Of a stretch of DNA of 64,000 nt, positions 18,833-25,539 are shown in pieces. Source of the stretch: an uncultured Methanomassiliicoccus sp. (GTDB taxonomy: Archaea > Thermoplasmatota > Thermoplasmata > Methanomassiliicoccales > Methanomassiliicoccaceae); NCBI GenBank assembly GCA_944319735.1, contig CALUEU010000002.1, positions 1 through 64,000 on the forward strand. The letters are read 5' to 3'. A model generated the notes under the pieces. The model was not told where the DNA came from. It saw nothing but the letters and a program-made list of their open reading frames with translations, and did not search any database. Within the stretch, counting starts at the first letter, position 1. Each line of letters opens with the position of its first letter. The translations under genes were made by a program, and so were the position numbers.

Positions 18833-20035
18833 TTAAACAATGGGCGGCTGTGGGACCCATGGGTGGCCAAACGAAGTTACTAACGCCTTGGGAAATCTTT
18901 TGAAACAAGCAAAGAATAGTTTTGTCCAATCACATTTTCCAAGAACATATTCTATACAGGTTTTTTGTATGAGGTGATCAGAGCTGAATTGTCTAACGAG
19001 TGATGGCACATTGCAGAAGCTAGCGGACAACGCTACCAGTCTGGCTGCAAGATTTGAGGATCTTAAATACGGAAGAACGTCTTTTCCTAGTCTGGATCTA
19101 TATGCATGAGGGATGGAAGAACCATGATTGATGAAGTCTACAGCGGCCATACCCGCATCCAAACCTGAGAAGATTGCATAAGTAAATCCCTCTCCCGAAA
19201 GAGAGCTTGCGAATCCTGCAGCGTCACCAACTGCCATGCATCTTTTTGTACAGAAATTATCACGTACGGCATAGGGAATTGAATGTGCAGCGGCTTCTTC
19301 ATCAGAAATCACATGAAACTGTGAATCGACGTGTTTGTATATTCTGTCCATTGATTGTTTTAGATATTCTGTAGGGTAACCGACTCCTCCAACTCCGATG
19401 TTTACCTGATTATTTTTGGGAAATGCCCAGGCATAAGATGGAAACCGATTTTTTAGTTTTGGTTTTAGTGGGGAACGGCCGATCGTGTATATCACAAAGC
19501 TATTTCCAGAGTCTTTTTCAACATTCAAGTTTTGAGCTATGGCAACAGCTCTGGACTTAGATGAAGGCGCACCAAAAATAGAATTTGCTACCCTGCTTGA
19601 CGCCCCGTCAGCAACAATAAACAATTTGGATGATATTGTTTCGTTTCCATATGTTACGTCTACGCAGTCATCTCTTTCTATTGCCTTTATAACACGGTGG
19701 CCTGTAATTGATTCAACACCTGCATTTATGGCACTGTTGAAGAGAAATGTATCAAAAGATTCCCTTTTAACTGTGACTGCAACACGTTTATCTGATTTTA
19801 TTTCAATGGATTCATCACCCATCACAAATTTAGCACCATAGATCTCCTTTTCAATTAAATCTGTAGAAAAATTAGGTAGTGCAGAATACGCACGCTCTAA
19901 TAAACCGCCAGCGCAGCATTTTTTCCTGGGAAACTCATCCTTGTCAATCATTAGGACGTTTAATCCAGCAGTTGCACATTTATAGGCAGCATTAGAGCCT
20001 GCGGGCCCACAACCAGATATGATTACATCATACAT
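18833..20035 (-). CDS. geranylgeranyl reductase family flavoprotein
   Basis: FAD-dependent reductase of the family that saturates the double bonds of archaeal lipid geranylgeranyl chains. The N-terminal Rossmann motif is ISGCGPAGSNAAYKCATAGLNVL (residues about 6-28), with IDKDEFPRKKCCAGGL next, and the second FAD motif is CMAVGDAAGFASSLSGEGFTYAI (about 265-287). The 400-residue length is normal. The C-terminal 60 residues are Cys/Phe-rich and less conserved. It may act on digeranylgeranylglycerophospholipid, but the substrate is not proven by sequence. Confidence 0.87.
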   Translation of the reverse strand: MYDVIISGCGPAGSNAAYKCATAGLNVLMIDKDEFPRKKCCAGGLLERAYSALPNFSTDLIEKEIYGAKFVMGDESIEIKSDKRVAVTVKRESFDTFLFNSAINAGVESITGHRVIKAIERDDCVDVTYGNETISSKLFIVADGASSRVANSIFGAPSSKSRAVAIAQNLNVEKDSGNSFVIYTIGRSPLKPKLKNRFPSYAWAFPKNNQVNIGVGGVGYPTEYLKQSMDRIYKHVDSQFHVISDEEAAAHSIPYAVRDNFCTKRCMAVGDAAGFASSLSGEGFTYAIFSGLDAGMAAVDFINHGSSIPHAYRSRLGKDVLPYLRSSNLAARLVALSASFCNVPSLVRQFSSDHLIQKTCIEYVLGKCDWTKLFFACFKRFPKALVTSFGHPWVPQPPIV

Positions 20036-20078: not shown

Positions 20079-20789
20079 TTATATGCCGCAGGATGATTTA
20101 TTGATGAGATTTGTTTCTGATAAAATTTCCATGGTATGAGATGATTGAAACTTTGGATTCCTCTTGTCCCTTATAAGGGATCTTAAATTTGCGATGGTGT
20201 CGATATCTGGCCATGGTGACAATAGATAGATTTTCATTCCTCCAAGCTTCTCTGCTGTGTCTGCAAAAGCCATGTCTGTTCCCCATGAGATATTGTCAAA
20301 TGCAGACTCCCTAAAAGACTCCTCAGAAAAACCGATTATATTGTATCCACCATCTACCGAAGGTCCTATAACAACTTCACTGTCTTTTAAAGAATATATG
20401 GCTTCCATAATCTCCTCTGCAGGAATGTCTGGAATGTCACTGACTAATACCATGACTTTCTTTTCACCCCTTGAAAAAGCATCTATGAATGTATTTTTAA
20501 ATCGTTCAATGGGTGTATCTCCTCTCTGAGTATACACACTGACATCTCTGTTTAACCATTCGTAAATGTCTGAGTTTTCAGGATATACGGAAATTGCATA
20601 GCGCAGGTCTGATGAGTCTAACGTGTCTAAGATATCCTGTACAAACGCTCTGTATAGCTTAATTGTAAAGTCTCTGCCCAATTCTTCAGCAATCCTGTGC
20701 TTAGTATCATCTGAGTTGTTCACTAGCAGTATTACCTGTACGCTTCTGTAGTCTGTGGTGCCAATTTCAGTCATAGATAAGGTATACAT
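20079..20789 (-). CDS. DUF2064/GT-A-like glycosyltransferase-fold protein
   Basis: Resembles the DUF2064 (TIGR04282-type) nucleotide-diphospho-sugar transferase fold. Signatures are VLVSDIPDIPAEEIMEAIYSL (equivalent to the GxDxP...A..L motif), VVIGPSVDGGYNIIGF and a final DIDTIANL. The usual N-terminal PxxGxxKTRL segment is weak here. The frame is open up to 20867, but the fold begins around residue 40 of that longer version, so ATG 20789 or 20774 is more likely. The substrate is unknown. Confidence 0.75.
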   Translation of the reverse strand: MYTLSMTEIGTTDYRSVQVILLVNNSDDTKHRIAEELGRDFTIKLYRAFVQDILDTLDSSDLRYAISVYPENSDIYEWLNRDVSVYTQRGDTPIERFKNTFIDAFSRGEKKVMVLVSDIPDIPAEEIMEAIYSLKDSEVVIGPSVDGGYNIIGFSEESFRESAFDNISWGTDMAFADTAEKLGGMKIYLLSPWPDIDTIANLRSLIRDKRNPKFQSSHTMEILSETNLINKSSCGI

Positions 20790-20930
20790 TGTGGATACTG
20801 GCTCTTGATATAACTTTCCAATGATGCATGATATCAATTTTGATTTTAAGAACAGAATACACTTCAAGGGGTTCGTATCCTTGAACGAAAGACTCTGTCT
20901 GAGATAATTCAGACCGAAAGAGGGAATATC

Positions 20931-22199
20931 ATGAAAAGTGCAACCGTACTAGCGGTAGCTCTATCTGCAGCTTTGTTGCTTTCAGGTGGAGCACTGGCGA
21001 CAAATGCGTCGGCTGCTGATCACTCTCCCAATGCTGATCATCATTACAGCATGCCGAGAGTTGACGTTTCGGGTCATGAAATCGTCTTCAACGATTCAAC
21101 CAAAGACGACCCCCTGTTCGGCGTTGTAGACCCCACAGTGTTGGCAATGGCGACAGAGAATTACATAAATGGGAATGATAGCTTTGCAGGTCGCAGCTCT
21201 GTGTTTAATTCACCAGACACCGCTCATTCCGTGCCGATAATGCAAAATGAGACTCCAGAAATCTTTTGGAATCAATATTTTGCCCAAATGGCATATTATG
21301 ACGTCAATTTAGTGAGAATAGGAGCTGCTGACATCTGGGGAACAGAAATCCAGCATAAAGCATGGCAGGATCACAATGGTGAATTCGTATCATTATTGAA
21401 AGACATGTGTAAAGCAGCAGAAAACAATGGCGTATACATCTGCCTTGTTCTTGCGGGATCTCAAGAGTATCCGACTTACCAGTTCGGAGGAGAAGGCTCA
21501 GTGTTTGACACCTCGTCTTCTGCATATTCGAATTACATTCAGTACTGTAACAGTATGATGTCGATACTGGAAAATGAGAATGCTATTGCAATGTATGACA
21601 TGTTCAATGAACCAGACCACAATAACTGTAATACAAATTACTGGAATGGAAACAAGCAGGCTTTCTCTGACTGGGCATCTGCAGTTGCTGCAGACACTAA
21701 AGATTCATCGACTCATCCTAGAACACTTGGTGTTGCCGGATATGGGAATCTGTTTAACTCCTGGTCTCAAGAAGACTTTGATCTTTCCACAGGGGACGTG
21801 GGATTTGAGATAGCTCACAGACATTACTATGCATCTGCAGAGGATTCTTCCCTGTTTGAAGAACCGGAAGAATGGGCAGAGAATTCAAACATTCCTCTCT
21901 ACTGGGGAGAGCTGGCGGATAATTCGGTATATCCCCTAACAAGATACTCATTCGCAGAAGAAGAGATTTGGGATGCAGGAGGACAGGCGATAACATCAAT
22001 GGTTCTTACCGGAACTGCCGGATATCCGTACACAGGCGGTACGCTTGAACCGGCATTGTCTAGTTCTGATGCAGTGAATGAAAAAGTTAATCCGGTTATT
22101 TCAGAAAATGCTTCTGAAGATACATCAAACCCCTTCATTCCAATAATTGGATTTATTGGCGCAATATATTTGTTTCTAAGATTTAGAGGAAAACTCTAA
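20931..22199 (+). CDS. secreted GH5-like glycoside hydrolase, membrane-anchored (copy 1)
   Basis: This 422-residue protein has a Sec-type signal peptide (MKSATVLAVALSAALLLSGG, likely cut near ATNASA-A) and a C-terminal membrane helix (PFIPIIGFIGAIYLFLRF) followed by basic residues, so the enzyme should face outward. The TIM-barrel domain resembles clan GH-A/GH5: the acid/base candidate is Glu227 in FNEP and the nucleophile candidate is Glu327 in YWGEL. LVRIGA and IAHRHYYAS also fit this fold. The glycan substrate is unknown. A strong AGAGGG precedes ATG 20931. It is paralogous to the next gene, with patches of near-identical DNA. Confidence 0.8.
   Translation: MKSATVLAVALSAALLLSGGALATNASAADHSPNADHHYSMPRVDVSGHEIVFNDSTKDDPLFGVVDPTVLAMATENYINGNDSFAGRSSVFNSPDTAHSVPIMQNETPEIFWNQYFAQMAYYDVNLVRIGAADIWGTEIQHKAWQDHNGEFVSLLKDMCKAAENNGVYICLVLAGSQEYPTYQFGGEGSVFDTSSSAYSNYIQYCNSMMSILENENAIAMYDMFNEPDHNNCNTNYWNGNKQAFSDWASAVAADTKDSSTHPRTLGVAGYGNLFNSWSQEDFDLSTGDVGFEIAHRHYYASAEDSSLFEEPEEWAENSNIPLYWGELADNSVYPLTRYSFAEEEIWDAGGQAITSMVLTGTAGYPYTGGTLEPALSSSDAVNEKVNPVISENASEDTSNPFIPIIGFIGAIYLFLRFRGKL
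21445..21718 (+). repeat. near-identical tract shared by the GH5-like pair (copy 1)
   Basis: This 274-base stretch matches 22997-23270 with a single mismatch (21512 C versus 23064 A), while sequence on both sides diverges at once, including synonymous sites. It spans the catalytic FNEP codons. A second identical 49-base patch is 21969-22017 versus 23518-23566. The pattern indicates gene conversion or recent recombination between the copies. Confidence 0.9.
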
Positions 22200-22494
22200 A
22201 TTCATATTTTTATTTTAAATAATTTAATGATTAAATAATCAACATCCAAACATGAGTATTCTAAAACAGTCCGTACAACGCTGATTGATGGCATTGTAAG
22301 ATAATATGAGATATATACTGAAATTGTTTGATGATTTTTTTGAATAATTCATAGATGATGATACATTAGCCAGATTGGTATGATTTCCAGACATATGAAT
22401 ATTAGTAATAGATTAAATCATCTATGATATTTAGACGCAAACTATCTTTAATAGTTAGCATTAGTCATGAACGGCTCTAACCAGGAGGGATTAA
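22200..22494. other. AT-rich intergenic region between the GH5-like genes
   Basis: No coding frame was recognised. It contains a 10-bp inverted repeat (22350-22359 and 22417-22426) and ends with the AGGAGGG ribosome-binding site at 22483-22489. The second gene therefore probably has its own promoter. Confidence 0.5.
22350..22426. repeat. 10-bp inverted repeat upstream of GH5-like copy 2
   Basis: CATAGATGAT at 22350-22359 is matched by its exact complement ATCATCTATG at 22417-22426, separated by 57 bases. It could be two half-sites of a looping operator or a weak RNA stem. AT-rich sequence makes chance occurrence possible. Confidence 0.3.
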
Positions 22495-23835
22495 ATAAAA
22501 ATAGCAACCAAGATGGTAGCAATGATAACAGCCCTTGCGCTGCTATTGCCTGGCGTGATTATTGCATCCGAAGCATCTGCAGCTTCGGAAACCTCTGCAT
22601 CAGGAAGAGTCACCGTATCTGGAACAGATATTCTGATTGACGGTGAAGTTCCTGAAGAGAAATTCTTCGGTGTCGTGGATACAACGGCATTACAATTCGC
22701 AATAATGGCGTATGTAAATGGCGATATGAATGTAGCCGGAAAGAACTCAGTATTCAATGGTCCAGACACTTCACCAGATGGAGGTAAAATCTCCCAAAAT
22801 GCGACTGCCAATGATTTTTGGCATCAGTATTTTGCTCTTATGAAGTACTATAACTGCAACCTTGTAAGAATTGGTGCTGGAGATACATGGGGATCTTCAC
22901 TTCAATATGAAGCATGGTTAAACCACCGTGAGGCGTATACCTCTTTACTAAAAACCATGTGTGAAGAGGCCATGGAGCATGGTGTATGGCTGTGCTTTGT
23001 TCTTGCGGGATCTCAAGAGTATCCGACTTACCAGTTCGGAGGAGAAGGCTCAGTGTTTGACACATCGTCTTCTGCATATTCGAATTACATTCAGTACTGT
23101 AACAGTATGATGTCGATACTGGAAAATGAGAATGCTATTGCAATGTATGACATGTTCAATGAACCAGACCACAATAACTGTAATACAAATTACTGGAATG
23201 GAAACAAGCAGGCTTTCTCTGACTGGGCATCTGCAGTTGCTGCAGACACTAAAGATTCATCGACTCATCCGAGGACCATGGGCGTAGCAGGCCTGGGAAA
23301 CCTGTTTGGATGGAGTAAAGAAGATTTCGGGCTGTCTACCGGAAATGTCGGATTCGAAATAGCACACAGACATTACTATGCATCAGCAAAAGACTCGTCG
23401 TTATTCTCACAACCAGAAGAATGGGCTAACTCATATGGGCTGCCTTTACTGTGGGGAGAACTTGCTGATAACTCAGTATATCCGCTCATTCGCCATACAT
23501 TTGGTGAAGAAGCAATCTGGGATGCAGGAGGACAGGCGATAACATCAATGGTTCTTACCGGAACTGATGGATATCCGTACACAGGCGGTACATTACCTGA
23601 TCCAGAAACCCCTGTATTTGGTGGTAACCAAAACAACGATCACAATAACAAAGGAGACGATACAATCAACAATCCAGGAGGAAACAATGCTGATGATTCC
23701 TTAAATGCTGGCCAAGGAAGTATCGACTCTGGTGAAGGAGGAGAAAGCAAAGGATCGTCAGCATCCTTAGCCGCCATTTCTCTTATTGCCGCAATTGTGA
23801 TCGCCATCATGCTGTTTATTGCTCGTAAGCAGTAA
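22495..23835 (+). CDS. secreted GH5-like glycoside hydrolase, membrane-anchored (copy 2), apparent ATA start
   Basis: Paralogue of the preceding gene with the same architecture: signal peptide, GH5-like barrel, an Asn/Asp/Gly-rich linker (about 30 residues, NNDHNNKGDDTINN type) and a C-terminal membrane helix SASLAAISLIAAIVIAIMLFIARK. Counted from ATG 22513, FNEP Glu is residue 217 and WGEL Glu residue 316. The first ATG lies 23 bases from AGGAGGG and would remove the basic n-region of the signal peptide. ATA at 22495 lies five bases from that site, directly after an in-frame TAA, and restores I/MKIATK before the hydrophobic core, matching copy 1. I therefore place the start at ATA; ATG 22513 is the conventional alternative. 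Confidence 0.78.
   Translation: MKIATKMVAMITALALLLPGVIIASEASAASETSASGRVTVSGTDILIDGEVPEEKFFGVVDTTALQFAIMAYVNGDMNVAGKNSVFNGPDTSPDGGKISQNATANDFWHQYFALMKYYNCNLVRIGAGDTWGSSLQYEAWLNHREAYTSLLKTMCEEAMEHGVWLCFVLAGSQEYPTYQFGGEGSVFDTSSSAYSNYIQYCNSMMSILENENAIAMYDMFNEPDHNNCNTNYWNGNKQAFSDWASAVAADTKDSSTHPRTMGVAGLGNLFGWSKEDFGLSTGNVGFEIAHRHYYASAKDSSLFSQPEEWANSYGLPLLWGELADNSVYPLIRHTFGEEAIWDAGGQAITSMVLTGTDGYPYTGGTLPDPETPVFGGNQNNDHNNKGDDTINNPGGNNADDSLNAGQGSIDSGEGGESKGSSASLAAISLIAAIVIAIMLFIARKQ
22997..23270 (+). repeat. near-identical tract shared by the GH5-like pair (copy 2)
   Basis: Partner of the 21445-21718 tract, 273 of 274 bases identical at a constant offset of 1552. The boundaries are sharp: the 5' edge lies within codons for LCFVLAG and the 3' edge within HPRT. 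Confidence 0.9.
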
Positions 23836-23854: not shown

Positions 23855-25432
23855 TTATTTTTTCATCATCTTATGAAGTTGCAGTAATGACTTAATCGGT
23901 GAACCGTCTTGCGAGTAAAAGGAATACATGAAATTTTCCAGTGATTCAGATTTTTCTTTAGAGTATGGAAACCACCAGGGATCTTCTGCATATTTTCCTT
24001 TATCAACATGAATATGATGAGGTTCTGTCAATTCTTCAAACCCAAATTTTCCATGAGTTCTGCCAAATCCGCTCTCTCCATTTCCTCCCCAAGGAGTTGC
24101 AGCCAGTCCATATGTATATAACAAATTATTAACCACAACGGTTCCGCTGCTGATTAGTTCTGCAATAACTTTTCCTTTAACTATATTTGATGTCCAAACA
24201 GACCCGGAAAGTGCATATTTACAATCATTGGCTAATTTTATTGCTTCATCTTCAGAGGAAAATTTCATTACTGTCACAATAGGGCCAAAAATTTCATCCT
24301 GCACAGCTGATGAATTTTGTGGAGCGTCTACCAGAATAGTAGGTTCAAAATAATACCCTTTGAGATTTGGATTTTTCTTCCCACCAATGAGTATTCTGGC
24401 TCCTTCCTCTACAGCTTTTTGTACATGCATTTCCATTTCTTGCAATGCTTTCTCATTTATCAGGGAGCCTAATGAGATACTTTGATCTTCCCAGCCCCAT
24501 CCCTGCTTTAATATTAATGTTTTATTTTTAAACATTTCTAAAAATTGATCGAATATTGATTCGTCTACGTAGATTCTTTTTACACAGACACAAGTCTGTC
24601 CTGAATTTACAAAGGATCCCCACACTGCAGCTGAAGAAGCCCGTTCCAGATCTGCATCTTTGAGAATAACCATGGGATCTTTTCCTCCCAGTTCTAAGGT
24701 CACGGGCGTAAGTCTCTGAGACGCTTGAGACATGACTCTGCGTCCCACATCTCCGCTACCTGTGAAAACTATTCTGTCTACATCAGATGTTAAAATTGCA
24801 TCCCCTACGGTTCGACCAGGCCCTACAAGAACCTGAACCAAATTATCTGGAAGGCCACCTTTTTTCATAATTTCAAGCATTTTTAATGCAGTCATGGGAG
24901 TATCTGATGATGGTTTTATTATCACAGCATTACCTGCTGCTACTGCCATAATTGTCTGAGAATAAGGTATTCCAAATGGATAGTTCCAAGGAGAAATTAC
25001 TGCAACTATTCCTACAGGTCTGGGGGCAATATATGAGCTTCTTCCAGCCAGCTTCATTGGGAATTGCATATCTTCCAAATTTATGTTCTCTCTTTTGAAC
25101 AATTCAGACATCTTGCTATTTGCATATTCGCCAGCAGCTAGTGCAGCAAATATGTCTGTAGAAATTGCTTCACTCTTTGGTTTCCCTGTTTCTCCGCAGA
25201 TCGTTCTTGCAATGTCGTCAATATTTGAAATTATTGATTCTTGTATATTATTCATGATTACTGCTTTATCATTGTATGATTTTTTCATCCATTCATACTG
25301 AGCATTTCTAGCATTCTGAAGTGCAAGCGGAACATCATCAGCTGTATTGCATTTGACTTTTCCGAATTCCTCAAGTGTTGCAGGATTTATTTTGACAATG
25401 TATTCTTCACCAGATTCTGTGCTAGACTGCAT
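23855..25432 (-). CDS. aldehyde dehydrogenase family protein
   Basis: NAD(P)-dependent aldehyde dehydrogenase fold. Recognisable parts are the substrate/cofactor segment ISPWNYPFGIPYSQ, VFTGSGDVGRR in the Rossmann region, the general base ELGGKDP and the catalytic Cys in NSGQTCVCVKRIYVD. A C-terminal SGFGRTHGKFGFEELTE is also typical. It most resembles succinate-semialdehyde or similar short-chain enzymes; the substrate is not determinable. ATG 25432 is preferred (525 residues): the frame opens at 25489, but its first 19 residues are hydrophobic and precede the family start. The promoter would contain the GTATACAAC palindrome at 25540-25562. Confidence 0.9.
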   Translation of the reverse strand: MQSSTESGEEYIVKINPATLEEFGKVKCNTADDVPLALQNARNAQYEWMKKSYNDKAVIMNNIQESIISNIDDIARTICGETGKPKSEAISTDIFAALAAGEYANSKMSELFKRENINLEDMQFPMKLAGRSSYIAPRPVGIVAVISPWNYPFGIPYSQTIMAVAAGNAVIIKPSSDTPMTALKMLEIMKKGGLPDNLVQVLVGPGRTVGDAILTSDVDRIVFTGSGDVGRRVMSQASQRLTPVTLELGGKDPMVILKDADLERASSAAVWGSFVNSGQTCVCVKRIYVDESIFDQFLEMFKNKTLILKQGWGWEDQSISLGSLINEKALQEMEMHVQKAVEEGARILIGGKKNPNLKGYYFEPTILVDAPQNSSAVQDEIFGPIVTVMKFSSEDEAIKLANDCKYALSGSVWTSNIVKGKVIAELISSGTVVVNNLLYTYGLAATPWGGNGESGFGRTHGKFGFEELTEPHHIHVDKGKYAEDPWWFPYSKEKSESLENFMYSFYSQDGSPIKSLLQLHKMMKK

Positions 25433-25539
25433 ATCAATGGAATAGTTTTGAAACAATATAATGATAGTTAATCCTGAACCGTAGAACATGTCCAGTTTTA
25501 GAAAATATTATATAGAAGAACTATTGTATATAGTGTATT

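Follow-up and report, generated by a model that had tools for sequence, protein, structure and literature searches.

What would a methanogen do with exported glycosidases, and why should it keep two of them side by side? Methanogens are usually described as users of small molecules; yet the whole taxonomic family to which this uncultured Methanomassiliicoccus belongs keeps surface enzymes of a polysaccharide-degrading type. The source genome (1.77 Mb in 21 contigs) contains McrA, which bears out the first-pass annotation's view of the organism as a methanogen. The answer that we consider probable is that the two genes encode exported glycosidases of clan GH-A, near the GH5 mannanases and mannosidases, that are inherited within the lineage, act at the cell surface and have been partly homogenized by gene conversion.

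The window, that is, the whole stretch of 64,000 nucleotides analyzed here, contains two tandem open reading frames on the same strand, as the first-pass annotation had described. Gene A (20931..22199, + strand; 422 aa) encodes a predicted exported, membrane-anchored GH5-like glycosidase, and gene B (22513..23835, + strand; 440 aa counted from its ATG) is a second copy, separated from A by 313 bases. In A a signal peptide (residues 1 to about 29, judged by eye) precedes the barrel (about 42-368), a linker, a C-terminal helix (about 402-418) and a basic tail. The Kyte-Doolittle scale (17-residue means) supports the signal peptide and C-terminal membrane helix proposed for both proteins: near the N-terminus of each lies a single strongly hydrophobic segment (A 2.22, B 2.56), and near the C-terminus another (A 2.05, B 3.04) with basic residues after it. 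Where B begins is less clear-cut. The motif GGAGG stands 24 nt before the first ATG and 6 nt upstream of an in-frame ATA (22495); a spacing of 6 is the mode for GGAGG-type motifs in the 64-kb window (14 of the 22 ORFs with the motif; 32 of 54 ORFs are without it), and a start at the ATA would give the signal peptide extra lysines, as in the homologues. The true start of B may be this ATA, or an original ATG may have been lost. A scan for TATA-like patterns found nine sites in the window and none between A and B; bacterial-type promoter and terminator models, which do not apply to archaea, gave chance-level counts.

Neither Pfam nor NCBIfam has a match for A or B at E <= 1, and PF00150 matches nothing in the whole source genome. 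Structure prediction is more informative. The AlphaFold model of A is a (beta/alpha)8 barrel (pTM 0.73) with most core blocks at pLDDT 72-96 and weak stretches at about 81-110, at 331-340 and from residue 360 onward; that of the B domain is again a (beta/alpha)8 barrel (mean pLDDT 81.9, pTM 0.86). The TIM barrel anticipated by the first-pass annotation is the fold that both models adopt. Foldseek gives 429 matches for A and 522 for B at E <= 0.001, with moderate TM-scores (0.38-0.54, on the query, and 0.44-0.61, respectively). In VIA-align the top 16 rows are the same 16 GH5 entries for both models (A, Z 22.6-25.1; B, Z 23.1-25.4), as with 3wfl (A, Z 25.1, rmsd 3.0, 270 aligned; B, Z 25.4, rmsd 3.0, 272 aligned). 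Thirteen of the 16 are titled mannanase or mannosidase, two carry a symbol only (GmMAN19-1 and BlMan5_7), and 8d89, titled "novel GH5 enzyme," is an endo-mannanase by name in the PDB profile search.

Sequence matches to the PDB include the GH5 mannanase 1qno, found with A (E 5.1e-4), with B (E 1e-4) and with the domain profile (E 1.8e-4); E227 of A falls on its residue 169, counted in the sequence alignment. A profile of 18 domains retrieves eight PDB sequences up to E 1, six of them GH5 mannanases, with NEP aligned on NEP. A full-length profile retrieves mainly collagenase PKD domains, although the GH5 enzyme 3ziz also appears (E 0.13), and phmmer with two single homologues found no GH5 chain. 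In alignment A1, which joins A and B with 22 homologues, PF00150 matches three of the 24 members at E <= 0.1. Of eight homologues scanned singly, L011 alone passes the 23.5-bit cut-off (26.4 bits); L009 (22.0) and L010 (18.3) fall below it, and the other five have no such match. (A1 leaves out L006 and L017, which have an in-frame stop, the fragments L029 and L030, the remote or broken L031 and L032, and copies then without a locus; the structure alignments A3 and A4 leave out L036, with one masked codon, and L049, L051 and L052, which are fragments or broken.)

The catalytic apparatus of a clan GH-A enzyme can be read onto these barrels. The FNEP and WGEL motifs of the first-pass annotation are present in both proteins, and their GH5-like placement on strands 4 and 7 is supported. 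In A, the N226-E227-P228 codons (21606..21614, + strand, positions from translation) put the predicted acid/base E227 directly after strand 4 (residues 219-225), while W325-G326-E327 (21903..21911, + strand) puts the predicted nucleophile E327, its role judged from position, within strand 7 (323-328): the Asn-Glu/Glu arrangement of the clan. In the B-domain model NEP lies just after strand 4 and E288, the counterpart of E327, in strand 7. That the two glutamates face each other is what their places after strand 4 and in strand 7 would imply. GH5 enzymes have a conserved Arg on strand 2 and a His-x-Tyr on strand 6. The corresponding R129, H298 and Y300 (A numbering), together with N226, E227, P228 and E327, are invariant throughout A1 (24 of 24). 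The Trp that GH5 enzymes usually have at the end of strand 8, though it is not formally defining, was sought at A 348-372 and seen in 0 of the 18 rows of A3 (in A1 it is absent in 23 of 24), with the equivalent position unsure because pLDDT in the A model is below 50 from residue 360. Activity could be altered as a result.

That no such Trp is seen is one of the points in favor of reading the proteins as carbohydrate-binding adhesins, in which a barrel that has lost or weakened its hydrolysis grips plant, microbial or host glycans. Longer homologues that carry added modules (PKD, He_PIG or Big-type) fit such a role too, as does a remote relative in genome G060 (PF00150 22.6 bits, below cut-off) with added BspA-type leucine-rich repeats; modules of these kinds are frequent in surface proteins. 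A and B themselves, however, have a short linker only and no added modules, and the invariance of R129, N226, E227, H298, Y300 and E327 across 24 members would be unexpected without catalysis. We judge adhesion without catalysis to be rather unlikely, and retain the reading of A and B as enzymes. (In an archaeal contig, L099:2919-6917, BspA-type leucine-rich repeats and a golvesin C-terminal domain are joined to a GH5-like domain.)

Where did such genes come from? Gut bacteria commonly carry GH5 enzymes, and the first-pass annotation raised the possibility of transfer from that source, which would make A and B recent acquisitions for the use of host mucin or plant fiber. The distribution of the family speaks against this. 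A profile search finds it in 17 of the 147 genomes searched from the order, with best E-values down to 2.8e-221 that exclude chance: all 15 of those from the taxonomic family, and two from another family. A sample of the phylum yields matches in 4 of 389 genomes, each of them in the same taxonomic family. Matching stretches, which include fragments and broken copies, number from one to seven per genome; the maximum among the 147 genomes belongs to G006. A scan of named genomes, which required exact matches to two peptide patterns and could therefore miss distant bacterial relatives, matched 66 stretches and confirmed 20, all archaeal. Their records are named Methanomassiliicoccus, Methanomassiliicoccales or Methanomassiliicoccaceae, apart from two "Euryarchaeota," one "Methanomicrobia" and one "Candidatus Thermoplasmatota." Among viral contigs the patterns matched 33 times with no match confirmed, and phage and plasmid searches found no homologue. 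The title of one relative from outside the taxonomic family describes it as a fen isolate; habitat is absent from most records, which therefore speak neither for nor against the use of host mucin. One in-frame stop each interrupts the homologues G060:C36 (TAG), G006:C4 (TAG), G006:C3 (TAA) and G003:C19 (TGA), possibly through decay, sequencing error or, for TAG, pyrrolysine, a reading set aside because TAA and TGA interruptions occur too.

Flanking genes bear on descent as well. An aldehyde dehydrogenase gene beside B (23855..25489, - strand) has relatives near the gene in four other loci (L040, L043, L044 and L045), all of one other genus, which argues for shared descent. Taken with the occurrence in 15 of 15 family genomes, this leaves recent gut-bacterial transfer very improbable, and as far as can be seen the genes have been inherited within the taxonomic family of these methanogens. 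On the other side lies the divergent neighbor (20079..20867, - strand), a gene of DUF2064 / CofC-like fold (DUF2064 E 4.2e-21, with CofC matches) that scores 117.9 bits against TIGR04282, an arsenosugar-type glycosyltransferase model with a cut-off of 134; to call it a glycosyltransferase-fold gene, as was done at first, is fair. None of the 33 neighbor loci compared has a counterpart of it. It is adjoined by a gene of the geranylgeranyl reductase family (18833-20035). Recurrent neighbors elsewhere are a P-type ATPase, alcohol and short-chain dehydrogenases, a Glycos_transf_3 protein, URO-D and PTPS; of ten examples scanned, two have no match and eight have Pfam families, among which are no glycoside hydrolases or sugar transporters. 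The neighbor genes in the loci compared offer no substrate clue.

If A and B are active, are their products eaten? SBP_bac_1 finds no match in the source genome, as against matches in 14 of 14 control genomes, so that sugar import by an ABC system of this type, and hence feeding on the products, is unlikely here. (The same absence would suit adhesins.) Within the taxonomic family 6 of 15 genomes match SBP_bac_1 at E <= 0.001 and three pass the cut-off; these three, together with the sugar transporters that, in the part of PMC4153887 available, are listed with glycosyltransferases among genes gained by the ancestral Methanomassiliicoccales, weaken a non-food reading. The balance still tips slightly toward action on surface glycans, or on those of local biomass, rather than for food. 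STT3 is present in the source genome, which makes N-glycosylation likely. The STT3 match (L101, G000:C2:234302-235456) sits in an open reading frame that spans 2116 codons, which is long for an STT3 oligosaccharyltransferase.

Titles and the starts of abstracts among the literature matches listed hold no description of this enzyme family. The available parts of three articles report other functions without mention of it: GH109 in one strain (PMC10804542), a bile-salt hydrolase in one species (PMC4153887), and glycosyltransferases with CBM44 in Methanocorpusculum (PMC10035134). In the portions available, "glycos" or "CAZy" is absent from PMC7883539 and "glycoside hydrolase" from PMC9723798, and neither names the family.

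Compared over their whole length, A and B agree at 66% of positions in protein and at 68% in DNA, and the median 60-base window holds 38 identities. Tract 1 of A (21445..21718, + strand; 274 nt, residues 172-263), which begins where strand 3 ends, stops just short of strand 5 and includes the acid/base, matches its probable donor in B (22997..23270, + strand) at 273 of 274 positions, the sole mismatch being at 21512. Tract 2 (A 21969..22042; B 23518..23591; both + strand) is 74 nt long with two mismatches (72/74) and covers residues 347-371 of A, in the strand-8 region. This exchange between A and B across part of the active site is a new observation, absent from the first-pass annotation. Trees, computed without the two longest-branch rows, change with the segment used: when tract columns are removed A joins L084a, the C15a copy of genome G003 (support 100/99), and B lies elsewhere, while tract 1 by itself pairs A with B as sisters (100/98), within B's part of the tree. 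In AU tests, whose groups were named only after the trees were seen, A with the G003 copy inside the tract is rejected (p 0.006), A with B outside the tract falls short of 0.05 (p 0.058), and A and B both in A's clade inside the tract gives p 0.087. Identity far above that of the flanks and a tree that differs inside and outside the tract are the marks of gene conversion; the mosaicism of A and B is well supported, and the direction from B to A is likely.

The conversion score of A and B is 268, against a maximum of 51 in 227 inter-genome control pairs (those of 248 under 72% identity). Five of the 28 within-genome pairs tested exceed this control maximum; the others scored are G006 C2b/C3a (209), G006 C2a/C3b (80), G003 C15a/C15b (70) and a G009 pair (63). 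For the two G006 pairs, 73% and 75% alike overall and so above the 72% limit, the comparison is less strict, and the maxima in their own 200 codon shuffles are 50 and 57. (Pairs of G001, G004, G012, G014 and G060 and the C4 copy of G006 were left out.) Could the shared tract be an artefact of assembly or consensus? The genome is in 21 contigs, and a repeat of 274 nt can outrun a short read. A collapse cannot make identical two copies whose median 60-base window is only about 63% alike, however; tract 1 retains one mismatch, and tracts occur in other assemblies too (G006 C2b/C3a 284/299, G003 80/82, G009 63/63). There is thus little chance of an artefact, and we hold to gene conversion. The tracts occupy different parts of the domain, and the similar tracts in relatives suggest that conversion recurs in the family.

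It would appear, then, that A and B are paralogues of long standing in which gene conversion has preserved a partial likeness; the segment of A that lies between the end of strand 3 and the start of strand 5, acid/base included, is probably derived from B. As retaining enzymes of clan GH-A, with GH5 beta-mannanases and mannosidases as their closest counterparts, they would be anchored by the C-terminal helix to the outside of the cell membrane, where E227 as acid/base and E327 as nucleophile may carry out retaining hydrolysis or transglycosylation outside the cell. Cell-surface glycans could in this way be trimmed or re-linked, whether those of the cell's own coat or those of the biomass that it sits upon; a beta-linked, mannose-like glycan is our tentative choice of substrate. 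A more specific proposal, which we think doubtful, is that these proteins form a separate GH-A family or subfamily for editing the methanogens' own surface glycans, in which repeated conversion reshuffles active-site segments and so varies specificity. If active, the enzymes would tie these methanogens physically or chemically to polysaccharides, or else reveal remodeling of a little-known envelope. The conversion tracts are natural active-site chimeras for testing changes of specificity.

How, finally, do A and B compare with known enzymes? We regard them as GH5-like proteins within clan GH-A, with mannan-active GH5 enzymes as their nearest kin; with weak sequence support and the usual strand-8 Trp not seen, they are not formally filed in GH5. 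They represent a divergent, lineage-specific family of GH5-like surface enzymes, whose activity, substrate and role we infer. Other clan GH-A families share the same kind of barrel: GH35 and GH140 reach a Z of about 20 in the VIA lists, below the GH5 mannanases, and GH157 and GH164 appear in the Foldseek lists only. The GH5 exo-mannosidases (Cellvibrio 1uuq/7odj and Rhizomucor 4lyp) come closer, at Z 22.6-24.1 with either model, although their solved chains are longer (409-415 residues). Nearest are the GH5 beta-mannanases of Trichoderma reesei (1qnp), Talaromyces (3wfl) and Podospora (3ziz), which we take to belong to subfamily GH5_7. Unlike these, A and B have a membrane anchor, are not recognized by PF00150, and show a conserved MVxTGTxxYPYxGG-like segment in place of the strand-8-region Trp. 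Identity in the structural alignments is just 14-19%, yet the likeness extends over the barrel of the whole domain (Z 24-25) and includes the shared NEP.
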